Origin: a virus | Reading direction: 5' to 3' (one strand) | Length of the DNA stretch: 39,434 bases | IMG/VR virus record: IMGVR_UViG_3300046096_000241 | Coordinates: 1-39,434 of that record | Shown here: in pieces, positions 21,101 through 32,668 of the stretch | Layout of the letters: every line of letters begins with the position of its first letter | Position numbering within the stretch: the stretch's first letter is position 1 | The notes under the pieces: model-generated | Databases searched by the model: none | What the model was told of the DNA's origin: nothing | What the model saw: the letters and a program-made list of their open reading frames with translations, nothing else | Translations under genes and position numbers: made by a program

Positions 21101-23169
21101 ATGTAGGAAATGTAAGCACAAGAACATTTACTATAAGAAACTATTCAACATCTGTACTATCATTTAATTCATCTAATTTAGCAACATTTGCAAATGGTGT
21201 ATCATTGGCAACTAATAATGCCTACCAATTTCCATCAGGAGGATATGGCTGGCTAGGATATGCTTTAACAGAATCTAATGGAATGTCAATTGCATTGAGT
21301 TCATCTACTCGACCTGGTGGGCCATTTCAAATGAGTTTTAATTCAGATAATGGATTTAATTTTGGTAATGCGACTAACAATACTATTTGGTTAAATATAA
21401 AATCAAATGGAAATACTATAATTGGCTCAACAACTGACGCTGGATACAAGTTTGATGTTAATGGAAATGCAAGATTTTTAAACGGTGTTACATCAAAAGG
21501 TAGTGCTGCTTATAATGGTATTTTTATAGCTGATAATACTGGAACAACTGGAGGAGGAATTTACTCAATTAGACAAAATGGTGTTTCAAGCGGATTTATT
21601 AGTGTTAGAGGTTCTGCTTTAGGTAATACAGATAGAAATATGGCTTTTGCTGCCGAACCAGGTTTGGGCCATTATTTTTATGTTAATGATGGAACATTAT
21701 CCCTTTCTTTAAATTCTAGTGGATCTGCAAGTTTTACTGGACAACTTAGTACAGGAGCATTATATCCTTCATATCTTTCATTTTATAATGCTGCCGCTGC
21801 AAATAAATTTATAAAATTAGCTGACGATGGATCAGAAATTGATGCAATAGGTTTTAGTAAAAGTGGATCAACTGCAACTGTATGGTTTCCAAATGGTAAT
21901 GTATTGATTGGTATGTCTACTAATGCTGGATATAGATTAGATATAAATGGATTTGCAAGAGCAACTCAATTAAAAGTTGAAAACTCAAACAATTCAATTT
22001 TAAGATTAACAAATACAAATGCAACAAGTGGAAAAGATTGGATATTGCAATCATATTCTGATGGATATTTTTACATGGGCATTGATGGGCAATGGAATGC
22101 ATTAACAATATCTAATTCATCTGCTGCTACATTTAGAAGTAGTTTAACAACAGGTGGTTCTTTAATTGTAAATGCTAATACAGCAGATTCTGCATTTTTT
22201 AGAGGAAGTGGCGAATTTGATGGTTCAAATAGAGTTTATGTTACAAATAATGCTTATATCCATGGTCGAAATAATTTAGTTTTAACAGGTAGATTGGATA
22301 ATTCAAATGATGGTTATTCATTTGGAACAAATTGTAGAAATGCTCTTGTATTTAATGTGAATGAAGGGGGATCGCAAGGAGCTACAGGAAATCCTTATTA
22401 CAGCTTTCAATTGCAAGGGGTTACAAAGGGTATGTATGTTCAATCAAAGTGGGGTAATGATAATTCAATAGGTGGATTTTTATTTACATCTGATAATAAA
22501 TTATTAATTAGAACTATTGTTGATAATGGATATGTTTTTGCTGTTAATGGAAATGCTAATATTTCTTCGACAATTACTGGCCAAGGAGGTATAAAAATTA
22601 TAGGAGGGGGAGCTTATTCTGGAGGCTATACAAGTGATGGATTATGGGGTGGAACAGCAACACCTAATTATATTTCAACAACTGGCACTGGTAAATTTAT
22701 TTTTGGATATCAAGACAATGGTTCTGGACTTTATTCTGGTGCTTATGGTTTTGAGGTTAAATCAACTGATGGGGCTAATAATCAAAATAGAGTTGTTGGT
22801 GCTTTGATAATGAAAGATGTAGATAAAAATACAAATCCATTCATTTTATATAATAATGGTACAATTTCTACATCTGGATCAGTAACTGCTACAGCATTTT
22901 ATGAATCTTCAGATAGTAGATTAAAGACATTAATTAAAAATGATATTGATGTTGAAGGCATAGAAAACTTAACTGCTAAACTTTATATTAAAGATGGCAG
23001 AGAGGAATATGGTTATTATGCTCAAGAAGCTCAAAAGTATATGCCATCTGCTGTAACTGTAAATGATAAAGGATATTTAAACTTATCTTATCGTGAAGTT
23101 CATACGGCTAAAATTGCACGATTGGAAAAAAGAGTTGCAGAATTAGAAAAACAATTAAATGTAGCTTAA
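18115..23169 (+). CDS. Giant tail fibre with C-terminal S74 self-cleaving chaperone
   Basis: The 1684-residue protein is the largest in the window and probably binds the host receptor. The N-terminal ~300 residues (start AIKTIRVFAEYTSDGYVPM) likely attach to the tail. The middle is repetitive beta material: twice DKMVSNLLAS.TEYPNSNAVL (residues ~416 and ~694), four times a T(D/N)AGYRFDVNG-type repeat, and a ~90-residue duplication near residues 880-970 and 1500-1590 (DGLFGTTATPN / DGLWGGTATPN). Residues ~1595-1684 are an endosialidase-type S74 domain: ESSDSRLKTLIKND, GYYAQEAQKYMPSAV, and a coiled coil AKIARLEKRVAELEKQLNV. In this family the chaperone folds the trimer and cuts itself off between Ser and Asp. 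Confidence 0.9.
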   Translation: MAIKTIRVFAEYTSDGYVPMPSQGNIDYGITIGNSFPETQPSSYQTDDPNIDVAVNTMTDFYVWIRTHGSPWNPSYTRVVRVYPDSPSINSVVMNMIVAVGGGGTTISSGGGVNYYLNGGTSQGVLDGSTYYEMSKTPVEGAGVDFFKINTTGFQNIAQFVTDAGDPGLLNIPAGNWPIGFYFSASDNSGNPKFYAEIYKYSAAGVFTLLGTGSATPEVITNGTAIDFYTTNTVIPETTLLTTDRIAVRIFVNTDGNRTVNLHTQDSHLSTVGTTFTRGLTAINGLIKQVQYIAIGNAGSDAAIVSSDDTHTINLPTASATKRGLLNSTDWSTFNAKQAALSGTGFVKISGSTISYDNSTYQPLDGDLTAIGALAGTTGILKKTGANTWELDTTTYLSTGVAADTYQRKDKMVSNLLASDTEYPNSNAVLAKLALKADIANPQFTGSMNIKGAESRINFYDEADAIKYFIGYDSGFLRIYQSAGSASRFYINLDGKTFIPGIVEAGTIIKTGGTASQFLKADGTVDSNTYLTSYTETDTLASVTARGATTSTPITVTASEGREVKVYMASTYTTNDLVSGHEYGWYNDHWRLGMTRSGNAFGADFVIQWNGARRLSLTNGGNLTVTGTISATNLSGTNTGDQTLTSLGAQAKLDGTGFVKASGTTISYDNSTYLTTTSAASTYQRLDKMVSNLLASSTEYPNSNAVLAALALKANAANPTFTGDFTISGVTPRLYFVDTDNNPDYTVFTDSGYFYIYDQTAGATRFSINSSGNINSGVGKSITAGSFVKESGTASEYLMADGSVSTALSNVITGSLTSGYIPKATGANTIGNGIIYDNGSFIGISTTTDAGYRFDVNGSGRFTGKIYGNTGIQISGGSPYTSYTTDGLFGTTATPNFVSTSGNGGAYGNNALLLGYQDNESGLYSPAYGFQVKSTDGAGNINRLVKSIVLRDVDKNTQPFIIYNNGDVVSSSKGTFGLSVTSQDYRYDNNGYITYNVGNVSTRTFTIRNYSTSVLSFNSSNLATFANGVSLATNNAYQFPSGGYGWLGYALTESNGMSIALSSSTRPGGPFQMSFNSDNGFNFGNATNNTIWLNIKSNGNTIIGSTTDAGYKFDVNGNARFLNGVTSKGSAAYNGIFIADNTGTTGGGIYSIRQNGVSSGFISVRGSALGNTDRNMAFAAEPGLGHYFYVNDGTLSLSLNSSGSASFTGQLSTGALYPSYLSFYNAAAANKFIKLADDGSEIDAIGFSKSGSTATVWFPNGNVLIGMSTNAGYRLDINGFARATQLKVENSNNSILRLTNTNATSGKDWILQSYSDGYFYMGIDGQWNALTISNSSAATFRSSLTTGGSLIVNANTADSAFFRGSGEFDGSNRVYVTNNAYIHGRNNLVLTGRLDNSNDGYSFGTNCRNALVFNVNEGGSQGATGNPYYSFQLQGVTKGMYVQSKWGNDNSIGGFLFTSDNKLLIRTIVDNGYVFAVNGNANISSTITGQGGIKIIGGGAYSGGYTSDGLWGGTATPNYISTTGTGKFIFGYQDNGSGLYSGAYGFEVKSTDGANNQNRVVGALIMKDVDKNTNPFILYNNGTISTSGSVTATAFYESSDSRLKTLIKNDIDVEGIENLTAKLYIKDGREEYGYYAQEAQKYMPSAVTVNDKGYLNLSYREVHTAKIARLEKRVAELEKQLNVA

Positions 23170-23170
23170 A

Positions 23171-23614
23171 ATGTATTGGACATCAATTCCATCTAATCAA
23201 TCTATAACATTTGAAAACCTTAAGGAGGCTTGCGATAATGGTTTTTTCTTACAACTATTACCAATGCCTCCTTCTGGAGTTTCAGCAAAGAAGTGTATTA
23301 GAGGTGATCAGGTTCAATCTTATGTAGATATACAATCTTCTCCTTTAAGCGGAACTGCAGCTAATCAAACAGTTGCTAAAAGTAAAATAGTTGCTAATTC
23401 TTATACATATTACCAATTAAATGCTTGTAATGGAGGTGCTGCTGCTTGGACTAGAATTGCCCCTACTTTAGGTTATGGGCAAAGATATATTCTTCCTAGT
23501 AGCACTCCTGTATACTATTGGTATAATGGAACATCTCAAGGCCCACAAACAAATGTTCCTTCTGGCTTCAATGGCTCAATCCAGATTGTAAGTGGAGCTA
23601 CTTATTGTCCTTAA
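23171..23614 (+). CDS. Hypothetical tail-associated protein
   Basis: The 147-residue product starts MYWTSIPSNQSITFENLKEA two bases after the fibre stop and is beta-rich in its second half (SYTYYQLNACNGGAAAWTRI, then YILPSSTPVYYWYNGTSQGP), with Cys in LNACNGG and near the C-terminal end (GATYCP). This pattern resembles short domains repeated in Bacteroidota phage and surface proteins that may bind glycans. Position next to the fibre suggests a fibre accessory or virion-surface protein. No enzymatic motif. Confidence 0.65.
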   Translation: MYWTSIPSNQSITFENLKEACDNGFFLQLLPMPPSGVSAKKCIRGDQVQSYVDIQSSPLSGTAANQTVAKSKIVANSYTYYQLNACNGGAAAWTRIAPTLGYGQRYILPSSTPVYYWYNGTSQGPQTNVPSGFNGSIQIVSGATYCP

Positions 23615-23633
23615 ACTTAAACTAATAAATAAA

Positions 23634-23951
23634 ATGAAATTAATCGAATCGGTATCAATTTGGAGTAATGGTCAAGCTAATAAAGCTTCTATTTTAAATG
23701 CTTATGCTGTTAATGTTACTTTAGACAAATCAGCTACATTCTTTTATTCTTTAAACTCAATTAAAGAAGATGGTAATTTAGGTGAACAATTAGCACAAGG
23801 TAACGTAACTATGAGTGGCGATGATTATCCTACATGGCAAGAAGATACTGCTGCTTGGGAGTTTATTGCATCTAAGTTAAACTTGACTATTACTGGTGAT
23901 TATGTAGCTCCTGTACAGGAAACAATTGTGAATGAGGAAATATCAGAATAA
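23634..23951 (+). CDS. Hypothetical protein following the tail fibre
   Basis: I start at the ATG at 23634 after AATAAATAAA, giving 105 residues (MKLIESVSIWSNGQANKASI...); an in-frame TTG/ATG region further upstream overlaps the previous gene and lacks support. The product looks like a small beta-rich domain (FFYSLNSIKEDGNLGEQLAQ, WEFIASKLNLTITG) with an acidic tail. No known family. It is likely part of the tail-fibre or virion block by position. Confidence 0.65.
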   Translation: MKLIESVSIWSNGQANKASILNAYAVNVTLDKSATFFYSLNSIKEDGNLGEQLAQGNVTMSGDDYPTWQEDTAAWEFIASKLNLTITGDYVAPVQETIVNEEISE

Positions 23952-23987
23952 TTATTAACTTTACGATATAATCAAACACACAAAACA

Positions 23988-24284
23988 ATGAAATTAAACT
24001 TTAACTTTAATCTTACAGATTTAGAGGGGAAAGAACTTCTTGAAAGAGATGGTTCAAAAGTAAACGCAGGTAAATTACTTGCAAACTCTTTGGTTCAACA
24101 AACTAAAGGTGATGCTATTAAATACTTTGAATGGGCTTTAGCTCTTAACAAAGGAGAAATTCTTGACTTAGATACTTCTGACCAAGATGTATTAAAAGGA
24201 TTTATTAAGGATAGCGAAGCAATCATCATCTTAGCTAAAGGACCATTATTACAAGTATTCACTAAAGTGCAAGACAAGAAATAA
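23988..24284 (+). CDS. Hypothetical 98-residue phage protein
   Basis: The product starts MKLNFNFNLTDLEGKELLER and continues with an amphipathic helical region (KLLANSLVQQTKGDAIKYFE, then DVLKGFIKDSEAIIILAKGP). It resembles a small family I recall next to lysis genes of Bacteroidota phages, function unknown. The stop overlaps the next ATG (TAATGG). Confidence 0.65.
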   Translation: MKLNFNFNLTDLEGKELLERDGSKVNAGKLLANSLVQQTKGDAIKYFEWALALNKGEILDLDTSDQDVLKGFIKDSEAIIILAKGPLLQVFTKVQDKK

Positions 24285-24433
24285 TGGATCAAGACGATTT
24301 AAAAGTGGGAATCTTTAATATGATAGCATTTAGTCTATCAATGACAGACTTAGAGCAATCTTTGAAGATTCTGCTTTTAGTCGCTACCATTGGTTATACC
24401 TTGCACAAATGGTATAAACTACATAAAAAGTAA
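24284..24433 (+). CDS. 49-residue single-pass membrane peptide, holin-region
   Basis: The ATG overlaps the preceding stop by one base. The product starts MDQDDLKVGIFNMIAFSLSM and has one transmembrane helix (about residues 27-40, LKILLLVATIGYTL) followed by a basic tail (HKWYKLHKK). The acidic N-terminus, single helix and basic C-terminus, together with its place just before a two-helix membrane protein, a spanin-like protein and the lysin, suggest a holin-type or antiholin role. Tight spacing (4 nt to the next ATG) supports it as real. Confidence 0.6.
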   Translation: MDQDDLKVGIFNMIAFSLSMTDLEQSLKILLLVATIGYTLHKWYKLHKK

Positions 24434-24437
24434 AACA

Positions 24438-24725
24438 ATGGCATTACTAGACATTTTTAAGGATGACAATGATATCAATGAGAAATCCGTATTAGGATTT
24501 GCTTCATTTGCTATCTTAGCAGTTTATGGAATTGCTGATGTTATTACAGGATTAGAGCAACAACAATTTGTTATTGAGCCTATTATCCTAGAAGTATTTG
24601 CTGGACTTACAGCAGCTTGTTTTGGTATCTCTGCTTTTGAGAAAACACAAAACAGAAAGACTGATGCTGAAAGAGAAAAGAATCTACCAGGTGGCTTAGA
24701 CCCACTACCAGAAGATGAAGGTTAA
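24438..24725 (+). CDS. Putative holin (two membrane helices)
   Basis: I start at the ATG at 24438 (MALLDIFKDDNDINEKSVLG, 95 residues), because upstream in-frame codons overlap the previous gene. Two helices, about residues 18-36 (VLGFASFAILAVYGIADVI) and 46-66 (IEPIILEVFAGLTAACFGIS), are followed by a charged tail. Small size, two helices and a charged C-terminus, two genes before the endolysin, fit a class II holin that permeabilises the inner membrane. It overlaps the next gene by 11 nt. Identification is by topology and context, not homology. Confidence 0.6.
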   Translation: MALLDIFKDDNDINEKSVLGFASFAILAVYGIADVITGLEQQQFVIEPIILEVFAGLTAACFGISAFEKTQNRKTDAEREKNLPGGLDPLPEDEG

Positions 24726-25320
24726 TATAGCCCTTTTTGTTTGTTGTATCATAGCTTTATTCTATGCTTACACTAAACACGTTCAAGCTGGAAAGGCTAG
24801 ACCAAATGATACTTTAGTTGTACACGATACATCTTGGAGTATTCACGATTCAATCATAGTAAAAAAAGTACCTGTTTTAAAGGAAGTAAATGTAGAGGTA
24901 GCATCCAAACCTGAGATGTTACCTGATACTAATTATGCTACCCTTAAAAGACAGTACATGGCACTATTACAACTTTATTTAAACAAGGTTATTTATTCTG
25001 ATACCATTAGAATAGGTACTTATGGTTACATAGCTGTATTAGATACCATTAATGAGAATAAATTAACAAGTAGAAAAACTCGTGAGAATTATCAAATTCC
25101 TATTGTCAAGGAGACAAAGACTATTACTAAGTATTCCCCACCAACAAGGAACTTATTTGTCGGTGGTGGAATTAATACAAGTAATTCTTTAGGCATAAGA
25201 GGAATTGAAGCTGGATTGCTTTATAAGACTAAGAAAGATGCTTTATTCAACATTAAAGCTTCTGTAGACTTAGATGGCAAGCCTCTCTATGGGTTTGGGT
25301 ATTACACCAAAATTAAATAG
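24715..25320 (+). CDS. Envelope-anchored protein in the lysis block (spanin-like)
   Basis: The 201-residue product has an N-terminal membrane anchor (residues ~3-19, VNIALFVCCIIALFYAY), a charged periplasmic middle with helical potential (ATLKRQYMALLQLYLNKVIY), and a C-terminal set of beta hairpins (NLFVGGGINTSNSLGIRGIE ... LYGFGYYTKIK). Its place between holin-like and lysin genes suggests a role in disrupting the outer membrane, like spanins, but the end looks like short beta-barrel strands, so a different envelope role is possible. It is separated from the lysin gene by 2 nt. Confidence 0.55.
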   Translation: MKVNIALFVCCIIALFYAYTKHVQAGKARPNDTLVVHDTSWSIHDSIIVKKVPVLKEVNVEVASKPEMLPDTNYATLKRQYMALLQLYLNKVIYSDTIRIGTYGYIAVLDTINENKLTSRKTRENYQIPIVKETKTITKYSPPTRNLFVGGGINTSNSLGIRGIEAGLLYKTKKDALFNIKASVDLDGKPLYGFGYYTKIK

Positions 25321-25322
25321 TT

Positions 25323-26171
25323 ATGCTTTTAAAAGTTGGTTCAACAGGAGACGATGTAGTTAAACTTCAAATTAAACTTGGAGTTGATCCTATTGGTAAG
25401 TTTGGTCCTAAGACTGAAGCTGCTGTAAAAGGTTGGCAAACAGCTCATGGATTAACTCCTGATGGTATAGTAGGAGATGCTACATGGGCTAAGTTATTTG
25501 CTCCTGTGGTAGAAACTCCTATTGCTCCTGTTATCGTAGCTCCTGTGGCAACTATTGAGCCTACAAAAGGGTTTAAACTTGATAAACTTAAAGGACACAT
25601 TCCTCAAAATGTTATTGATCAGATTCCTGATACAGCATCTAAGTTTGGCATAACTAATAACTTACGTTTAGCACACTTCTTAGCTCAATGTGGCCATGAA
25701 AGTGGAGGCTTTAGAGCTGTTAGTGAGAATCTTAATTATTCTGCTAAAGGATTGTGTGGAATATTTAGAAAGTATTTCCCTAGTGTAACTATTGCATTAC
25801 AATATGAGAGAAAGCCTGAGAAGATTGCTAATAAAGTGTATGCTAGTAGAATGGGGAATGGTCCAGAATCTTCTGGTGATGGCTATAAGTTTAGAGGTCG
25901 TGGGTATATACAGCTTACAGGAAAAGACAATTACTCTTTATTTGATGCTACTGTACCTGAAAGTATTCTTGATATGCCTAATTTAGTTGCTAGTAAGTAT
26001 CCTTTAGCCTCCGCAGCATTCTTCTTTAAGAGGAACAACTTGTGGGCTATATGTGATAGAGGTGCAACTCCTGATGTAGTAACTTCTGTAACTAAAAGAG
26101 TTAATGGCGGTACTATTGGTTTAGCTGACAGACAAAAACACTTTACTGAATACTATAAACTACTTTCATAA
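25323..26171 (+). CDS. Endolysin: peptidoglycan-binding domain plus GH19 (chitinase/lysozyme-like) domain
   Basis: The 282-residue enzyme degrades the cell wall at lysis. Residues 1 to ~60 are a PG_binding_1 domain (VGSTGDDVVKLQIKLGVDPI ... GIVGDATWAKLF). A Pro/Val/Ala linker (about 61-80) leads to a glycoside hydrolase family 19 domain with AHFLAQCGHESGGFRAVSEN (E126 and E135 are the expected catalytic acids), YKFRGRGYIQLTGKDNYSLF (about 188-207) and a typical VTKRVNGGTIGLADRQKHF end. No signal peptide, so it relies on a holin. Its stop overlaps the next gene (TAATGG). Confidence 0.93.
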   Translation: MLLKVGSTGDDVVKLQIKLGVDPIGKFGPKTEAAVKGWQTAHGLTPDGIVGDATWAKLFAPVVETPIAPVIVAPVATIEPTKGFKLDKLKGHIPQNVIDQIPDTASKFGITNNLRLAHFLAQCGHESGGFRAVSENLNYSAKGLCGIFRKYFPSVTIALQYERKPEKIANKVYASRMGNGPESSGDGYKFRGRGYIQLTGKDNYSLFDATVPESILDMPNLVASKYPLASAAFFFKRNNLWAICDRGATPDVVTSVTKRVNGGTIGLADRQKHFTEYYKLLS

Positions 26172-26296
26172 TGGCAAAAGCTACTAAATCAGCAGAAACT
26201 AAAAAGATTACTTTTGGTACTAGAAGAAAGGGTAAGGCTAAGAAGTCTTATTCTAAGTATCAAGAGAAACCTAAACCAAATAGAGGACAGGGATGA
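26171..26296 (+). CDS. 41-residue very basic peptide
   Basis: ATG overlaps the lysin stop and the TGA overlaps the next ATG (ATGA), which argues for a real gene. The product, starting MAKATKSAETKKITFGTRRK, has 14 Lys/Arg in 41 residues and no hydrophobic segment. It looks like a ribosomal-protein-like or nucleic-acid-binding peptide. It opens the envelope/secretion module, although nothing else links it to secretion. Function unknown. Confidence 0.6.
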   Translation: MAKATKSAETKKITFGTRRKGKAKKSYSKYQEKPKPNRGQG

Positions 26297-26805
26297 AACT
26301 ATTTACTATAACAGCTTGGATTGTTTCAATCATAATAGGAATGAGCTTCACAGTTCAATCCTTTTTTATTTATAAGCACTTCTTCCCTACTGAGCCTATT
26401 ACAGTAGCTCCTGTGGAGAATAAAGTGCAAATAGGAGCACTTGCAGGTAATAGAAACCTAGCTTTTGGTGTAAAGAATATACTAGAAGAATACTTGGTAG
26501 TTAAAGAATACGATTTATCTGATGATTCTAAGCAGGTAATAAAAGTAGAAATATTATATCTTGATGTATTTAAGCGTGAGGCTAATTTATCCGTATTTCA
26601 TGGAGCAACTGAAGCTGTTGTAATTAGACTTAGAGGTACATTATATGATAATGGTAAAGTGATTAAGAAGGCTATTGTAGAAGAATCTGCGGAAGAAGTC
26701 TCAATGTCTACACTTTTAGTTGATGAAGGAGGTAACTTTAATCAACAAAATCTTTCTAGTGCTTTTAAAAAATCGTGTAATTCTTTAATTAACAAGCTAT
26801 TATGA
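26293..26805 (+). CDS. Membrane-anchored periplasmic protein, possible divergent CsgG-like domain
   Basis: The 170-residue product has an N-terminal membrane helix (residues ~5-26, TITAWIVSIIIGMSFTVQSF), then a periplasmic domain. The domain's order of elements follows the CsgG-like gene at 29229: GVKNILEEYLVV, a strand IKVEILYLDVF, a strand pair VVIRLRGTLYDNGKVIKKAI, and a closing helix NFNQQNLSSAFKKSCNSLIN. The parallel with GVTNIVVEFLEE, FVYIEVYDFSV, VTRLGLQVKFINAETGEYF and KFNQSTIGASTKKALEGAAS suggests two diverged copies of one fold. Known members of such folds include CsgG, LpoB and ABC auxiliary lipoproteins. This is inference from eye alignment. Confidence 0.5.
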   Translation: MKLFTITAWIVSIIIGMSFTVQSFFIYKHFFPTEPITVAPVENKVQIGALAGNRNLAFGVKNILEEYLVVKEYDLSDDSKQVIKVEILYLDVFKREANLSVFHGATEAVVIRLRGTLYDNGKVIKKAIVEESAEEVSMSTLLVDEGGNFNQQNLSSAFKKSCNSLINKLL

Positions 26806-28565
26806 AAAAGATATTTTTTCTTTTATTCTTGCTAATTGGTTTTCAATCATCTAGCCAAGTAGTAAAAGTATATTTCAATAATGATTCTACCAATACTAAC
26901 CTTGCTGGCAATGTTATTAACAAGGGAGATTCTTTTGATGTATTAGTTAGTGCTGATGGCAATAACAATACTTCTGTTAGGTCACTTTATTTTGACTTCG
27001 AATACACAAACACTGCTTTTGAGTTCTTAGGTGTAGACCATACAGGAACTGGTGGTAATGGTGGTATTATTCCTTATGGTTCACAAATCTCTATGAGCTA
27101 TCAAAATTATCCAGGGTATAATTATGTTACTACCCAATCAAATAATGTCGCAGATGGCAATTTAAAGTACATTTATGGGCAATATAACTACACTCCTAAT
27201 GGCTCAAAATCTATTCTTCGTGTTTATTTAAACTGGGCTATTGCTAGTGGAGGCTTAGGTAAGGATACTATTCTTAAATTACACTTTAAGCTAAAGACTA
27301 CAGCTCCTGGTTATGCTTGGGATGCTATTAAGTTAAACTTTGCTGCTGCATTTAATCAAAATGGTTCTAGTGGTTCAACAATAATGACAACTCCATTGAA
27401 TAACATTATTATGTTAGACCCTGTAGCTACTAGATACATTAATCCTACTTTAATGGTTAATGCTAATGTAGATGCTATGTCACTTCATAGGGTAGCATTT
27501 ACTGATTCTGTAGCTAATACAACTTACTTAGTAGATGCTTTATCAGATGGAACTATTCCTGTTGATCAGACTAGATTCTCTCCTAATACAGTATACCATG
27601 TTAGAGTATTGTTTAACATGGATTCTATTAAGGATTTATCAACTGCTGCTGTAACTGTTTCTGATTATACTACAGCTCAAGCTGAATTTGTTACTCAAAA
27701 CCTTGATGGTACTTTTAGAAATCAGAACATCATTACAGGAGCTGGGTATTTTGCTGCAGATGTTAATAGGAATAAACTCTTTGATGGAGGAGACTTAGTT
27801 AAGCTATTCTCTCAAGTAACTGGTGTAGAAAACTTAGTTACACTACCAGAAAGCTATGTAGCAGGTACTGATATGTATATGAGTGCACCTACGTTTACTG
27901 ATTCTACATTTAATGGCCTTACACAAGCTAATTGGAAAAACCTAGATAAGACATATGTTAGATTTAAAACAGATGTTATAGGTAAAAATCTCCCTTTAAA
28001 GTTACGTTTTGTTATTCCTGGTGATATTAACCGATCACATAGCTCTCAAGTATTAATTAATAATGCTATTGCTACTAATGCAGTTCCTAGCTTAAAGAAA
28101 AGTTTAGCTAAGACAGCTAACTTATTGATTAATACTCCACAATTTGTGCCTAGCATTAATGTTAATCTAAAGAATGTTACAGTTACTTCTAATAGCATTG
28201 AGATACCTGTTAAGGTAGAAGCTGGTGATGTTAGTGTTAGTGCATTACAATTTGAGTTTACTTATGATGCTACTAAATTAAAGTTTGAGAGCATTTCTAA
28301 TGACTTACCTAATACTTGGTATACATTTGTAGATAATAAGGATGGTAAGGTTAAATTTGGAAGTATTGATAAGGATATTAAGAATCCTGTTACAGGAAAT
28401 ATTATACCTTTTAAGCTGAAGTTTAGTACCTTAGCAAGTGGATTGGATATCAATTCATTTATTAGAGTAACTCCTAATATGGATGCAAGCTCTAAAACAG
28501 GTTATCAATTAGGTATTAACTTATCCACTGATGTCATCAAATTGACAGGATACAATAACTTTTAG
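26802..28565 (+). CDS. Secreted protein with cohesin-like domains and dockerin-like motifs
   Basis: The 587-residue product begins with a clear signal peptide (MKKIFFLLFLLIGFQSSSQ). Residues ~20-205 (GDSFDVLVSADGNNNTSVRS, YFDFEYTNTAFEFLGVDHTG) and ~449-587 (EIPVKVEAGDVSVSALQFEF, TYDATKLKFESIS) have the cohesin-type beta-sandwich pattern. In between, ADVNRNKLFDGGDLVKLF (about 317-335) and GDINRSHSSQVLINN (about 407) resemble the two calcium-binding loops of a dockerin, separated by an insert. Cohesins and dockerins bind each other in surface complexes. Finding this in a phage late operon after the lysin is unusual. Starts 4 nt inside the previous gene (ATGA). Confidence 0.6.
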   Translation: MKKIFFLLFLLIGFQSSSQVVKVYFNNDSTNTNLAGNVINKGDSFDVLVSADGNNNTSVRSLYFDFEYTNTAFEFLGVDHTGTGGNGGIIPYGSQISMSYQNYPGYNYVTTQSNNVADGNLKYIYGQYNYTPNGSKSILRVYLNWAIASGGLGKDTILKLHFKLKTTAPGYAWDAIKLNFAAAFNQNGSSGSTIMTTPLNNIIMLDPVATRYINPTLMVNANVDAMSLHRVAFTDSVANTTYLVDALSDGTIPVDQTRFSPNTVYHVRVLFNMDSIKDLSTAAVTVSDYTTAQAEFVTQNLDGTFRNQNIITGAGYFAADVNRNKLFDGGDLVKLFSQVTGVENLVTLPESYVAGTDMYMSAPTFTDSTFNGLTQANWKNLDKTYVRFKTDVIGKNLPLKLRFVIPGDINRSHSSQVLINNAIATNAVPSLKKSLAKTANLLINTPQFVPSINVNLKNVTVTSNSIEIPVKVEAGDVSVSALQFEFTYDATKLKFESISNDLPNTWYTFVDNKDGKVKFGSIDKDIKNPVTGNIIPFKLKFSTLASGLDINSFIRVTPNMDASSKTGYQLGINLSTDVIKLTGYNNF

Positions 28566-28922
28566 ATGAAAAAGGCAATAGCATTTATATCAATAGTATT
28601 CTTACTTTCTTGTGAGAAGTTTGAAGTTGAACAAACCCCTACAATTGAGCTAGGAGCTACTTCTTCCTCTGCTAATATACTTTCTATCAAGACAGAAGGG
28701 AATAAGGCAACAGTGATAGCTAAAACAACTCCTGGAGCTAAGTATAGCTTACAATTATTTAAGTTTGGTGTACTTGATCCTATAGATACTAGAGGATTTA
28801 CAGCAAATATGGATACTACTAGAATGGTTCTTGAGTTTAAGACTATTCCTAGTGGAATTTACGATATATCTTTAACGGATATTTCAGGTAATACAGATAA
28901 AAAACCTTTAATTTTAAATTAA
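28566..28922 (+). CDS. Small lipoprotein
   Basis: The 118-residue product begins MKKAIAFISIVFLLSCEKFE, a lipoprotein signal peptide with lipobox LLSC; the mature chain would start at Cys16. The rest is a short beta-rich domain (NILSIKTEGNKATVIAKTTP ... GIYDISLTDISGNTD), probably Ig-like. It directly follows the cohesin-like protein with no spacer. A likely role is attachment to the outer membrane of the neighbouring secreted proteins; specific function unknown. Confidence 0.65.
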   Translation: MKKAIAFISIVFLLSCEKFEVEQTPTIELGATSSSANILSIKTEGNKATVIAKTTPGAKYSLQLFKFGVLDPIDTRGFTANMDTTRMVLEFKTIPSGIYDISLTDISGNTDKKPLILN

Positions 28923-28923
28923 T

Positions 28924-29235
28924 ATGTCAGAAGAAAATAACGATGGAACTTGGTCTGGTTTAGTTAAGACTATTGTTGGAACAGTAGGAACTGTTGTGAC
29001 TGCTGGTGGAGCTTATTTAGGCTCACAATTATTTGGTGGTGGAGAAGAAAAAGAAGCTACTTCTGTACAGACTGTAGCTCCAGCTCCTGTTATTAACATT
29101 ACAACTAATAACACACAACAACAAAAACAAGCTTCTAGTGGAGGCACTAAGGTTATTGAACGTGTAGTAGAGAAGCCTGCAGCTCCTAAGAAGAAAACTG
29201 AAAAAGAAGCTTTAGCTGAAGAACCAAAATGGTAA
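28924..29235 (+). CDS. Glycine-rich hydrophobic protein with charged tail
   Basis: The 103-residue product has an acidic start (MSEENNDGTWSG), a Gly/Val-rich helix-prone segment (LVKTIVGTVGTVVTAGGAYL, residues ~13-32), a polar NTTNN/QQQKQ spacer and a C-terminus rich in Pro, Lys and Ala (KPAAPKKKTEKEALAEEPKW). It overlaps the CsgG-like gene by 7 nt, so the two are co-translated and may act together, for example as a membrane-inserting or plug partner. No homology recognised. Confidence 0.55.
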   Translation: MSEENNDGTWSGLVKTIVGTVGTVVTAGGAYLGSQLFGGGEEKEATSVQTVAPAPVINITTNNTQQQKQASSGGTKVIERVVEKPAAPKKKTEKEALAEEPKW

Positions 29236-29936
29236 AATACTTAATCGCCTTTTCGTTTATTTCGTTTACAGGGTTGTCACAGATAGCTTCCACTAAAACG
29301 GAGGCTTATGTGGCTTCTTTTGAAAAGAAGATAAACATTGATTCTTTAATGGATTATGATGGACCTAAAATTCCTATCCAAATTCTATCATTAGGTATTA
29401 ATGATGAAGTATATGCTGCTTATCCAGAATTAAAAGATAAACGTGTAGGATTAGGTGTAACTAACATTGTTGTCGAATTCTTAGAAGAAACTAATCGTTT
29501 TACTTTTACTGAAGAAAAAGCTGAAATTAAAAATAGAATGGTGAAGCAATTTCAGGCATCTCAATCAGGTATTACCGAGAATAAACTAGATGGTAGAGGT
29601 AAGATTAAGTTAGCCCAATACTTTGTCTACATTGAAGTTTATGACTTTAGTGTAAGTGAAGATGAATCTATTTCTTTAAAGGATGGTGTAAAACAAACTG
29701 TAGTTACTCGTTTAGGCTTACAAGTTAAGTTTATTAATGCTGAAACAGGAGAATACTTTACAGGAAGTGGTTTAGGTGATGCTAAGACTACCAGGGAGGC
29801 TACTCTAATGAACGATAATAACTTTAGTGAGATAAAGTTCAATCAATCAACTATTGGAGCTTCTACGAAGAAAGCTCTTGAGGGTGCTGCAAGTAAGATT
29901 ATTGTTAGAATGATCAAGAAAAAAATCTTCAAATAG
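29229..29936 (+). CDS. CsgG-like (curli secretion pore family) protein
   Basis: The 235-residue product has an N-terminal signal peptide (MVKYLIAFSFISFTGLSQ; no lipobox Cys, unlike bacterial CsgG). The body follows the CsgG pattern: KIPIQILSLGINDEVY, RVGLGVTNIVVEFLEETNRF ('..a..lv..L.....f...eR'), KIKLAQYFVYIEVYDFSV ('ga...v.G.i......'), VTRLGLQVKFINAETGEYFT ('v.v..rvvd..TGe....'), and a C-terminal helix STKKALEGAASKIIVRM. In bacteria CsgG makes a nonameric outer-membrane channel for curli subunits. Here it may form a channel in the host envelope late in infection or in a carrier state. It is among the strongest functional hints in the module. Confidence 0.62.
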   Translation: MVKYLIAFSFISFTGLSQIASTKTEAYVASFEKKINIDSLMDYDGPKIPIQILSLGINDEVYAAYPELKDKRVGLGVTNIVVEFLEETNRFTFTEEKAEIKNRMVKQFQASQSGITENKLDGRGKIKLAQYFVYIEVYDFSVSEDESISLKDGVKQTVVTRLGLQVKFINAETGEYFTGSGLGDAKTTREATLMNDNNFSEIKFNQSTIGASTKKALEGAASKIIVRMIKKKIFK

Positions 29937-31159
29937 TGAAATGGTTATTACTACTACTATTCCTTCCTTTATTAACCCAAGCACAAGTTCTGACACAAAC
30001 TTTTGTAGACCCTTGTTCTAATCAGGTAGTAGTGGTTACAGTACCTATTGCAAATGGAAAAACTACCATAGTATATCGTGGGAAATATCGGGTAGTAACA
30101 GCAAATGATATCACTACAGGTGAATTACAAGCCTGGATTAATAACTTAACTGTAAACTTTCCGTGCCCACAAGCTGAAGTTGCTGTAACACAAACAGTAG
30201 CTAGGGCAGTACAACAAGCAGTAGCTCAAGCTACAAGTGCTGCTACATCTCAAGCAACTTCTTCTGCTACAAGTGCTGCAGCTAGTGCTGCTACTTCTGC
30301 TGCTGTTTCTAGTCCACCTCCTGTATCTACTCCTGCACCTTCTAGTTCTTCTTCATCATCATCTTCTGAAACTCCTAAGACTGAAACTAAATCAGAAACT
30401 AAAACGGAATCTAAGAGTAAAGAAAAAAGTGAAAGTAGTTCTGAATCTAAAAGTGAGGACAAAAAGGAGTCTAAATCAGAAAGTAAATCAGAAAAGAAGT
30501 CTTCTTCTAAGAGTGTGGCCAAGGTTAATCCTATTATTTACAATAGTGATTTTACAATAGCACCTACTACGGATGTGGTATCTATCATAGCTTCTGTAGG
30601 AATGTCTCAATCTTCTTTAATGGGAAATACTTCTTGGGGTATATCTTCAATGATTTGGTCTACATTTGATCAGTTTGCTTTAAGTGGTAGATATACCTTA
30701 ATGAACTTTAATGAAGGTAAGCTACAATCTATAAGCAATTATGGTATTACTGGAGTTTATCTAGGAGGAACTATGCTAGGCTTTGCTACTGCAGCTTATA
30801 TCTATCCATTAGGTAAATATGGTGTGAGTGGAGCTAACTATACTTTTAGTGTAGCAGGAGCTGATAATGGTCTTAATTTGTCAAATAACATCTTATTATT
30901 CTATACTATTCCTGTAAAAGTGAGCAAAAGACTTACTATTAGTCCAGATGTTTATCTATCTGGTAGTTCAACAGGATATCTTACTGATCAAAAAGTTTTT
31001 GTAACTGGTGATGATATTGGTGTAATGACTGGATTTAATTTCGATATTGCCTTTACTAAACGATTTAAGTTAAATTTTGCATTAAAGACATCATTCAATA
31101 CAAACCCAATTGTACCTCAAACCTATATGGGAATGATAGGAACTAAACTGAATTTATAG
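29936..31159 (+). CDS. Outer-membrane-like protein with long low-complexity linker
   Basis: Starts with GTG (overlapping the preceding TAG), giving signal peptide MKWLLLLLFLPLLTQA. Residues ~17-85 form a small beta domain (QTFVDPCSNQVVVVTVPIAN). Residues ~86-195 are low complexity: first Ala/Ser/Thr repeats (ATSAATSQATSSATSAA), then Pro/Ser, then alternating Ser, Lys and Glu. Residues ~200-407 show alternating amphipathic strands (MSQSSLMGNTSWGISSMIWS, FALSGRYTLMNFNEGKLQSI, IPVKVSKRLTISPDVYLSGS, FKLNFALKTSFN) like an 8- to 10-stranded outer-membrane barrel. It is the last late gene before the terminator. The linker could span the periplasm or peptidoglycan. Confidence 0.6.
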   Translation: MKWLLLLLFLPLLTQAQVLTQTFVDPCSNQVVVVTVPIANGKTTIVYRGKYRVVTANDITTGELQAWINNLTVNFPCPQAEVAVTQTVARAVQQAVAQATSAATSQATSSATSAAASAATSAAVSSPPPVSTPAPSSSSSSSSSETPKTETKSETKTESKSKEKSESSSESKSEDKKESKSESKSEKKSSSKSVAKVNPIIYNSDFTIAPTTDVVSIIASVGMSQSSLMGNTSWGISSMIWSTFDQFALSGRYTLMNFNEGKLQSISNYGITGVYLGGTMLGFATAAYIYPLGKYGVSGANYTFSVAGADNGLNLSNNILLFYTIPVKVSKRLTISPDVYLSGSSTGYLTDQKVFVTGDDIGVMTGFNFDIAFTKRFKLNFALKTSFNTNPIVPQTYMGMIGTKLNL

Positions 31160-31220
31160 TTCTGATATTAATTCCTAAATTGCAGTACGTTTTGTGTGAT
31201 TTGGATTGTGTGTGCAATTA

Positions 31221-31242
31221 GGGGGATTATATCCTCCTTTTT
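31221..31242 (+). terminator. Terminator of the late unit
   Basis: GGGGGAT-TAT-ATCCTCC stem-loop (one G-T pair) followed by TTTTT on the plus strand, 60 nt after the last late gene. Confidence 0.75.
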
Positions 31243-31252
31243 GCGTTATAGA

Positions 31253-31285
31253 CAAAAATCCCCAAGGTCAATAACCAAGGGGATT
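31253..31285 (-). terminator. Terminator of the leftward replication unit
   Basis: Read on the minus strand, AATCCCC ... GGGGATT (inner GG/CC pairs, short loop) is followed by TTTTTGTC. It lies about 30 nt beyond the helicase stop and faces the late-unit terminator, so the two converging transcripts are both stopped here. Confidence 0.75.
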
Positions 31286-31315
31286 AATTTACAACTATGA
31301 AAAAAATTAACTTAC

Positions 31316-32668
31316 TCAAAATTTGTTCCCTACAAAGTTATGTTCTTTTATTTTAGATGTGGCTACATCAATGAACATTTCGTGGGTTGCAGTTAGGCCA
31401 TCTCTATTCTTCATAAAGATGTATTCAATGGTATTATCAAACTCTACATTGTTATTTCCTTCTTCCTTAGCTCTCTCAAACTTATAATAGTCATCTCTGT
31501 ATAATCCAATAACTACGGAAGCATCTTGTTCAATTTGTCCAGAAGAACGTAAATCAGATAACTTTGGCCTATGTGAGCTTCTACCTTCTAATTGCCTATT
31601 TAATTGGGCAGCACATAAGAATGGGATATCTAGCTTCTTAGATAGCTGTTGTATCTTTTTGGATACACTACCTACTACGGCTGTTTCATCATTACTCTTA
31701 ATATTAGAATCAGTTATCAATTGCATATAATCAACAAGTACCATCTTGATATCTTTCTCTCTTACAATCTTTTGCACTAAAGCGGATAAATAATTAATGT
31801 CTCTATTAGCTCCATCATACCAAGTGATAGGTAGCTTTTCGAGTTTAGTGATAGCATCCTTTTGAATAGCTGAAAATTGGTCAATATTTATCCTTCCTGT
31901 CTTTATTTTAGAGTAAGGAGTATAACTATCCAATGTTCCAGAAATCATTCGGTAAATTAAAGATATTACTGGCATCTCAAGGGATAAGAATAGTACATTA
32001 TGCCCCATAGCGGAGGCATTCCTAGCGTGTTCTAGTAGACAAATAGTTTTACCTTGTCCTGGCCTTGCAGCAAATAGGATAACATTACCTTTAAGCCATC
32101 CACCTGTAATTTCATCTAACTTAGGATATCCTGTAGGAACTCCTGCAGTTTGTCCATTAGTCATAACATCTCCTAGATTATTTAAGGCATCAACTAAGGC
32201 AGACTTCATATCTACTATCTCCTTATCATCATCCTTAAACATCTCTTGATTAGTAATAGAGTTTACCTTGTCTACTAAAGAAAAGTAATCTGATCCGTTA
32301 GCTAAATCATTGGTAATTTGTCTTGATAAGTCCATTAAATCTCTTTTACCCTTCAATTCAGCTAGGTAAATAAGCAATTCATTGGTACTTGTTGATGAAT
32401 GAGTAGTTGTGGAGGCTAATAAAGTAGCCCAATCATTGTTTCCGCTTGATTTAAGCCTTAATACTACATCCGTTAAGGTATAGTTACCCTTTTCAGAAAA
32501 TAACTCAGCACAAGCCAAAAATACACTTCTAGTTTGTTCAAAGTGAAAAATGTTTGGTTTGATTATTTTTTGCACTTGCTTAAATGCAGAAGGATTAGAA
32601 GTGATTAATGATATAACTTCCTTTTCCGCATCTAAGTCGGTAAATGATATTTTCTCTTTAGCTTTCAT
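31316..32668 (-). CDS. dnaB: Replicative DNA helicase, DnaB family
   Basis: Unwinds DNA at the replication fork. The 450-residue protein has an N-terminal helical domain (DAEKEVISLITSNPSAFKQV, about 12-32), a linker, and a RecA-like ATPase with Walker A AARPGQGKT (about 200-208), GHNVLFLSLEM (about 222-232), Walker B MVLVDYMQLI (about 309-318), and the DnaB signature LRSSGQIEQDASVVIGLYRD near the end. Length is typical. It is the last gene of the minus-strand early unit, next to the putative loader. Confidence 0.95.
   Translation of the reverse strand: MKAKEKISFTDLDAEKEVISLITSNPSAFKQVQKIIKPNIFHFEQTRSVFLACAELFSEKGNYTLTDVVLRLKSSGNNDWATLLASTTTHSSTSTNELLIYLAELKGKRDLMDLSRQITNDLANGSDYFSLVDKVNSITNQEMFKDDDKEIVDMKSALVDALNNLGDVMTNGQTAGVPTGYPKLDEITGGWLKGNVILFAARPGQGKTICLLEHARNASAMGHNVLFLSLEMPVISLIYRMISGTLDSYTPYSKIKTGRINIDQFSAIQKDAITKLEKLPITWYDGANRDINYLSALVQKIVREKDIKMVLVDYMQLITDSNIKSNDETAVVGSVSKKIQQLSKKLDIPFLCAAQLNRQLEGRSSHRPKLSDLRSSGQIEQDASVVIGLYRDDYYKFERAKEEGNNNVEFDNTIEYIFMKNRDGLTATHEMFIDVATSKIKEHNFVGNKF

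Follow-up and report, generated by a model that had tools for sequence, protein, structure and literature searches.

Six adjacent genes lying downstream of the endolysin gene of a tailed phage constitute a module that is conserved among Bacteroidota phages and inherited as one unit. They are located in the window, i.e. the whole stretch of DNA analysed here, which spans positions 1-39,434 of IMG/VR record IMGVR_UViG_3300046096_000241, a virus of a Bacteroidota bacterium. In their order on the genome, they encode a membrane-anchored protein of 170 amino acids (aa), an exported 587-aa cohesin/dockerin-like protein, a 118-aa lipoprotein, a 103-aa membrane protein, an exported 235-aa protein with a predicted CsgG fold and an exported 407-aa protein with a predicted C-terminal barrel; all except the lipoprotein gene are referred to below as the five core genes. 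From what is established (the gene set, two predicted folds, the cohesin domain, the conserved order, inheritance as a unit, the spread over phage backbones and the near absence from sampled bacteria), we infer the assembly of the module, its location, timing and effect, and the lifestyle of its carriers. The explanation that we favour, while giving it slightly less than an even chance, is a co-inherited envelope/surface assembly that acts at and after lysis as an adhesive scaffold on the dying cell.

Conservation and co-inheritance of the module

A first scan of viral contigs for the CsgG-fold gene yielded 68 loci, and a profile scan detected this gene in at least 497 viral-contig stretches, the best 80 of which were kept, on contigs of up to 317 kb. 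These counts concern the CsgG-fold gene alone. For the remainder of the module, 95 non-redundant loci were examined: the cohesin and barrel families are each present in 89 of them, and 70 loci have enough flanking sequence to score neighbours. Among these 70 loci, the cohesin and barrel genes are each kept in 69, the 170-aa gene in 65 and the 103-aa gene in 59, which is more than chance would give. The block suggested by the sequence-only reading holds up. The endolysin (55 loci), holin-like (46), lipoprotein (41), spanin-like (39) and 185-aa membrane protein (37) families follow, and the next family reaches 19. The five core genes are complete in 54 of the 70 loci, and 66 follow the order 170-cohesin-(lipoprotein)-103-CsgG-barrel, the departures being L105, L001, L072 and L065. 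The lysis genes lie upstream, inside or downstream of the module, depending on the locus; in many relatives the 95-aa holin-like gene sits within it, between the 103-aa and CsgG-fold genes. No ORF (open reading frame) clustered with the CsgG-fold gene in 6 of 153 records.

Presence and absence were also viewed from the lysis side. We fetched the best 80 of 279 endolysin relatives, 37 of which have 5 kb on both sides: 27 of these carry all five core genes and 10 carry none. After dereplication, 25 of 33 endolysin loci are complete, 8 are without any core gene and none is intermediate. The CsgG-fold gene was absent from the 15 module-less endolysin records searched over their whole length, some of which may be fragments, the other, mostly short records lying outside this search; the same query recovered a known copy in a separate search used as a positive control.

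Two pairs of related phages provide the clean examples of absence. L215 and L228 are collinear, with 74-93% DNA identity. The module of L228 is split into three pieces (170-cohesin-lipoprotein, 103-185 and CsgG-barrel) separated by endolysin, holin-like and membrane genes. None of these pieces is present in L215, which has 0.8 kb of different genes where the third would lie; the two phages show two smaller differences elsewhere. In the second pair, L172 lacks the block present in L175, with about 82% identity on both flanks, and keeps a 47-aa remnant matching the anchor of the 170-aa protein. That separated pieces are missing together, without intermediates, shows that the module behaves as one accessory unit, and suggests that its proteins depend on each other. 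L215, L216, L172 and L174 keep the endolysin and holin-like genes without the module, L172 and L174 also a spanin-like gene. Being collinear with module carriers, these phages presumably lyse without the module proteins, which weakens the earlier suggestion that the module delays release.

At the third site of L215 (L215:10151-10922, compared with L228:10990-13034), two small genes (119 and 134 aa) lie where the CsgG-fold and barrel genes are missing. The first encodes a seemingly exported protein, which may represent a remnant or a substitute.

The spread over phage backbones was examined with the terminase. No match to the window terminase was found in 30 chosen module-bearing records. In a control set of 15, two records match at 99-100% (one being the window itself), five at 34-37% over part of the protein and eight not at all. 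Many contigs are fragmentary, so that a missing terminase is weak evidence alone; the five records with 34-37% identity carry the weight, and their CsgG-fold proteins are 86-88% identical to that of the window. Similar CsgG-fold proteins alongside divergent terminases suggest that the module moves between phage backbones. The terminase comparison replaced a count of phage backgrounds by shared neighbours, in which single linkage collapsed the loci into five groups, two of them large. On the 104-kb contig of L003, a terminase 99% identical to that of the window lies about 14 kb beyond the module, a position that fits a circularly permuted genome, yet the contig is 2.6 times as long as the window.

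Only two loci were retrieved from genome contigs, both read as phage-like contigs of metagenome-assembled genomes (MAGs). In profile searches of bacterial genomes, 395 of the class and 299 of the genus, the seed MAG, through its phage-like contig, was the only positive. The carriers are apparently virulent, since the module is nearly absent from the bacterial genomes sampled. The only annotated phages with the CsgG-fold gene are the immuto phages of Flavobacterium sp. LMO8 (four records, 160 kb; 52% identity). Their gene order is cohesin with a type IX secretion system (T9SS) sorting tail, 103-aa, CsgG-fold and barrel; they also encode a 151-aa protein that falls into the cluster of the 170-aa family.

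Selection on the module was estimated as the ratio of nonsynonymous to synonymous divergence (dN/dS) by the Nei-Gojobori method, for pairs with dS between 0.15 and 1.2, the pairs not being independent. The CsgG-fold protein is the module member under the strongest purifying selection (median dN/dS 0.045). The medians are 0.117 for the endolysin, 0.122 for the holin-like, 0.123 for the 185-aa, 0.126 for the spanin-like and 0.127 for the 170-aa protein, followed by the barrel (0.155), cohesin (0.181) and lipoprotein (0.278) families. The value of the 103-aa protein (0.469, 725 pairs) was set aside, this protein being short and poorly alignable.

Predicted folds and export features of the proteins

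The 235-aa protein was modelled with AlphaFold at moderate confidence (predicted local distance difference test, pLDDT, 67.5; predicted template modelling score, pTM, 0.58). CsgG is the top match of this model both in Foldseek (5.7e-8) and in VIA (Z 11.8, root-mean-square deviation 4.0 over 170 residues), with PelC, FlgT and LptE lower among the matches. These three methods together support a CsgG fold for the predicted model, as the sequence-only reading had anticipated. In a virus-only structure library, the top match is a phage protein annotated CsgG; the single-strand-annealing proteins that come next were taken as partial folds. The profile check proposed with that reading had the opposite outcome: the Pfam CsgG family (PF03783) matches none of 20 family members at E≤10, whereas the control, E. 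coli CsgG, is recognised by that library at 4.1e-83. No match of the 235-aa protein in Pfam, NCBIfam or PHROG falls below E 0.009, a PDB profile search returned only unrelated entries, and neither BLASTP nor hhalign alignment to E. coli CsgG was significant. The relationship to CsgG is thus claimed from structure, sequence methods having found no kinship. The stretches equivalent to the two CsgG hairpins comprise 42 residues against 48 and 29 against 36 in E. coli CsgG, and both carry conserved charges; being short and charged, they do not establish a membrane pore. The window protein has a plain signal peptide and no lipoprotein signal. A loose lipobox pattern occurs in 15 of 95 family members, some of them unconvincing, that of L065 being clear.

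The model of the 170-aa protein is better (pLDDT 80.8). A membrane helix (residues 2-30) precedes a predicted domain of alpha and antiparallel beta structure, as in the LptE/PelC/CsgG/TraT fold class, to which we assign the protein on the basis of this model. Its VIA matches include Cj1090c (Z 12.5), CsgG (12.3), PelC (12.2) and TraT (10.1), the 50 best ranging from 12.5 to 9.5. The Pfam family Lipoprotein_16 is found in 14 of 26 relatives (best 9.2e-5), the TraT family PF05818 in one of the 26, weakly (E 0.15), and a PDB profile search with the family gave nothing useful. Alignment of the 235-aa and 170-aa families with hhalign gave a probability of 70%, which is merely suggestive. The second CsgG-like domain proposed from sequence alone thus stands as a member of the wider class (Z about 12), not as CsgG specifically.

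The secreted cohesin protein of the sequence-only reading was borne out by a signal peptide and by Pfam PF00963, which matches the 587-aa protein at E 2.3e-9 (38 bits, for a cut-off of 24.1) and 27 of 31 family members at E≤0.1. Pfam is the clear test here, the PDB profile having returned only two endoglucanase entries (E 0.065 and 0.071). The protein also contains a single clear F-hand loop, DVNRNKLFDGGD, spanning residues 320-331, and a partial one, GDINRSHSS. A strict pattern of the textbook dockerin loop, chosen after inspection of the window protein, matches 76 of 111 family proteins, whereas shuffled sequences give a mean of 0.08; Pfam dockerin PF00404 matches 3 of 31 members (best 5e-4). 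T9SS sorting tails are found in 3 of 31 members, in immuto gp15 (9.3e-12) and in L192, and C-type lectin domains in 2 of 31 members and in 4 of 10 hand-picked proteins. No attached enzyme was detected in the proteins scanned.

A lipobox is present in 56 of 57 members of the 118-aa family, which upholds the reading as a lipoprotein. Two or more acidic residues lie at positions +2 to +6 after the cysteine in 34 of 57 members. They resemble the Bacteroidota surface-export signal, derived as SDDFE for Flavobacterium johnsoniae (PMC5080379), and the protein is possibly surface-exposed. PHROG Cor has a weak match (E 0.011) to residues 1-61 of the window lipoprotein, a stretch that takes in the signal region; for both reasons this match was set aside as evidence of exclusion. 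The 103-aa protein, described earlier as glycine-rich, is better termed a protein with a Gly-zipper-like hydrophobic segment, a Pro/Lys tail and no signal peptide; its C-terminal residue, Trp103, is invariant in 27 of 27 aligned sequences. The 407-aa protein comprises an N-terminal DPC..C domain, a long low-complexity Ser/Ala/Lys/Glu linker and a beta-amphipathic C-terminal part. The beta moment of its family, with a median z of 2.2 and values from -0.29 to 3.47 (the two CsgG-class families have 0.63 and 0.11), is consistent with the outer-membrane-like barrel with a long linker predicted before, and a C-terminal Leu is found in 27 of 27 aligned members; PDB and Pfam matches of this family were judged low-complexity chance.

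A 185-aa membrane protein, missing from the window, is a common extra member of the module. It is encoded between the 103-aa and CsgG-fold genes (MTRRWLITAIVLGGFMLIIGGI in L024; L024:7420-7986, L071:6905-7477).

The layout of the locus is given in the table below. Genes for terminase, portal, major head protein and tail tape-measure lie upstream of the block, and a convergent DnaB-type helicase gene lies beyond it. Seven + strand ORFs directly follow the endolysin (26171-31159), with gaps of -1, -4, -4, 0, 1, -7 and -1 nt from the endolysin onward. As had been noted from the sequence, these genes overlap or abut and end at a terminator-like stem; the scan of 22800-31700 on both strands found 8 stems, 3 of them versions of this one, against 3.5 in shuffles. 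Six of the seven genes form a real module, which occupies 12.3% of the window, and the first, encoding the 41-aa protein, is not core: clustering places it in 17 of 70 loci, an undercount for a protein of this length, and 40 of 71 records contain it according to direct BLAST. It ends RGQG, and a relative (L057:10033-10167) ends KYRGQGK. The PHROG holin match of the 95-aa protein is weak (E 0.084, with a query copy 2 residues short).

Table. Features of the lysis region and module in the window.
Feature	Position	Strand	Basis and occurrence
Window, virus of Bacteroidota bacterium	1-39,434		IMG/VR record IMGVR_UViG_3300046096_000241
49-aa small membrane protein beside lysis genes	24284..24433	+	8/95 non-redundant loci; not core
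95-aa holin-like membrane protein	24438..24725	+	PHROG holin match; 46/70 loci
201-aa spanin-like protein, N-terminal membrane helix	24715..25320	+	Sequence, name inferred; 39/70 loci
Endolysin, peptidoglycan-binding domain and GH19/endolysin domain	25323..26171	+	Pfam, PHROG matches; 55/70 loci
41-aa basic protein	26171..26296	+	Variable association, outside core
170-aa protein, membrane helix and predicted periplasmic LptE/PelC/CsgG/TraT-like domain	26293..26805	+	AlphaFold; 65/70 loci
587-aa exported cohesin/dockerin-like protein, signal peptide	26802..28565	+	Pfam; 69/70 loci
Dockerin-type calcium loop DVNRNKLFDGGD, residues 320-331	27759..27794	+	Pattern scan
Cohesin domain of 587-aa protein, residues 454-542	28161..28427	+	Pfam
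118-aa lipoprotein, possibly surface-exposed	28566..28922	+	Lipobox; 41/70 loci
103-aa Gly-zipper-like membrane protein	28924..29235	+	Alignment; 59/70 loci
235-aa exported protein, predicted CsgG fold	29229..29936	+	AlphaFold, Foldseek, VIA
407-aa exported protein, predicted C-terminal barrel from ~30533	29936..31159	+	Alignment, beta moment; 69/70 loci
Intrinsic-terminator-like stem, late operon end	31220-31239	+	Stem scan; precedes convergent helicase gene

Two further kinds of gene were noticed near the module in relatives. A NUC1 (DNA/RNA endonuclease G-like) protein with a signal peptide is encoded near it in 13 of 95 loci (for example L001:5196-5774 and L043:16032-16616); once exported, this nuclease could cleave DNA that is entering or has been released. 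Genes resembling those of GroEL-like chaperonins lie upstream in L043 (185-1825) and L065 (3260-4873).

Possible roles of the module

Signal peptides, CsgG-type folds and cohesin/dockerin features agree with an exported, envelope-directed module linked to the lysis genes, as the sequence-only reading had it. In the assembly that we favour, the inner membrane would hold the 103-aa protein together with the anchored CsgG-class protein of 170 aa, and the exported CsgG-fold protein would form a ring, periplasmic or in the outer membrane. The 407-aa protein would place its barrel in the outer membrane, its long linker reaching inward. Outside, the cohesin/dockerin protein and the lipoprotein would constitute a calcium-dependent adhesive scaffold, to which some relatives add lectins and T9SS tails. 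Such a scaffold would most likely coat or cross-link the dying cell and its debris, so that phage receptors are masked, rivals shut out or neighbours held close. The module is encoded with the lysis proteins, so it is probably made with them. Of the channel or surface assembly suggested earlier, the surface part is backed by motifs that point the same way: T9SS tails and C-type lectins in some relatives, dockerin loops, the lipobox with its acidic residues, and signal peptides. The pore part is unproven, the hairpin equivalents in the CsgG-fold model being short and charged. A bolder form, which we consider somewhat unlikely, is a horizontally shared phage organelle, a trans-envelope machine that builds a cohesin-dockerin-lectin coat on the Bacteroidota cell just before lysis and is carried by many backbones. 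If real, such an organelle would add to the lytic cycle a third stage, distinct from both virion and lysis, in which progeny are spared from debris, rivals excluded and hosts held.

Several observations weigh against the adhesive scaffold. The set is sometimes incomplete, with four core genes in 15 of 70 loci and two in one, as judged from our own gene calling. In the immuto phages, the only cultured carriers found, the module is surrounded by genes of nucleotide metabolism; the annotated endolysin gp236 lies about 7.7 kb away and the homologous endolysin domain about 29 kb away. No T9SS tail was found in the window 587-aa protein with our library, nor any match to Pfam dockerin PF00404 at E≤1. 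The linkage to lysis genes would equally suit a role in lysis. Finally, the holin-like and spanin-like families occur in 24 and 20 of the 25 module-bearing endolysin loci and in one and none of the 8 module-less ones. Since these families are nearly absent there, most of the 8 are probably different phages sharing only the endolysin, not clean deletions.

This last point gives weight to the reading of the module as an outer-membrane lysis aid or timer, which would open or weaken the Bacteroidota outer membrane together with holin, spanin and endolysin, and takes weight from the surface reading. The three lysis genes are the commonest neighbours from outside the module, the holin-like gene is often within it and tracks it across endolysin loci, and a lysis-regulating role is proposed for CsgG of the OM43 phage Melnitz (PMC9004378). 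We nevertheless consider a lysis role unlikely, though far from negligible, because collinear relatives keep their endolysin and holin-like genes (L172 and L174 the spanin-like gene too) without the module, and because it is hard to see what cohesin, lectins and sorting tails would contribute to lysis. A gated channel, in which the CsgG-fold protein would form an outer-membrane pore that exports phage cargo (the cohesin or the 103-aa protein) or imports nutrients, would fit the top matches to CsgG among solved structures and to the CsgG-annotated protein among viral ones, and both hairpin positions exist. It is quite improbable, however, given charge-rich hairpin stretches that fall short of those of E. 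coli CsgG by 6 and 7 residues, the lack of a Pfam CsgG match in all 20 members, and the absence of CsgE, CsgF and curlin from the ten window proteins scanned. Moreover, the cohesin protein brings a signal peptide of its own, and the T9SS tails of some relatives constitute another export route.

Lectin and cohesin-like domains can occur on virus particles, and the late position after the tail genes would suit virion components, for instance a particle decoration sticking to glycans. We regard this as very improbable: signal peptides, lipobox and predicted barrel point to the envelope, the module is kept alongside divergent terminases, and every PHROG match of the six module proteins lies above E 0.009, those to structural families being confined to the low-complexity linker. 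Least credible of all is that these are ordinary late accessory genes, brought together by chance or shared transcription without cooperating. The 41-aa gene and the lipoprotein are indeed not always present, but the endolysin loci divide into complete and empty without intermediates, three separated pieces are missing together, and the order is kept on different backbones.

Comparison with known systems

The adhesive scaffold that we favour can be set beside several described systems. T5 Llp and Cor are small phage lipoproteins that serve superinfection exclusion and debris masking. A phage-made outer-membrane lipoprotein would be common to both cases, the one described here being one part of a larger set. 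Cohesin-dockerin scaffolds are known from cellulosomes and other assemblies. The module shares with them the cohesin and the dockerin-type loop, sometimes within one protein, and differs in being phage-borne and in having no enzyme in the proteins scanned. In Cryophage, a Bacteroidetes phage, T9SS type A sorting domains occur on variable enzymes and a PA14 protein (PMC7468147); here the tail is carried by the cohesin protein inside a conserved block, in some relatives only and not in the window.

The predicted folds of the 235-aa and 170-aa proteins resemble the CsgG/PelC/LptE/TraT class, with about 5-18% identity to the solved matches. In contrast to CsgG, a lipoprotein, the 235-aa protein has a plain signal peptide, and the 170-aa protein differs from its class in being membrane-anchored and not lipidated.

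The module occupies 12% of a 39-kb phage, and its CsgG-fold gene is present in at least 497 viral stretches and under strong purifying selection, yet no described system with this gene set was met in the open-access literature searched, mostly as listings, in agreement with the sequence-only reading. If our explanation is correct, Bacteroidota phages commonly rebuild the host surface around lysis, in parallel to the curli clusters of pelagiphages. Collinear phages with and without the module and the cultured immuto carriers (Flavobacterium sp. LMO8) make this question testable.

Pelagiphage curli is the nearest precedent, with different partners. The gene csgG is listed as abundant in marine phages (PMC7003362), whole curli clusters move between phage families (PMC9599517), and uptake or sibling capture was suggested for the curli of pelagiphages (PMC7029224). 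Phage curli of pelagiphages and Melnitz likewise combines a CsgG-type protein with a conserved multigene cluster found across phage families, and the roles proposed for it are uptake, sibling capture, exclusion or lysis control (PMC7029224, PMC9599517, PMC9004378). The Pfam families of CsgE, CsgF and curlin had no match among the ten window proteins scanned at E≤1. Instead, the CsgG-fold protein of these phages of Bacteroidota hosts is accompanied by a second protein of the CsgG class, a cohesin/dockerin/lectin protein, a predicted barrel with a long linker, a Gly-zipper-like protein and a lipoprotein.

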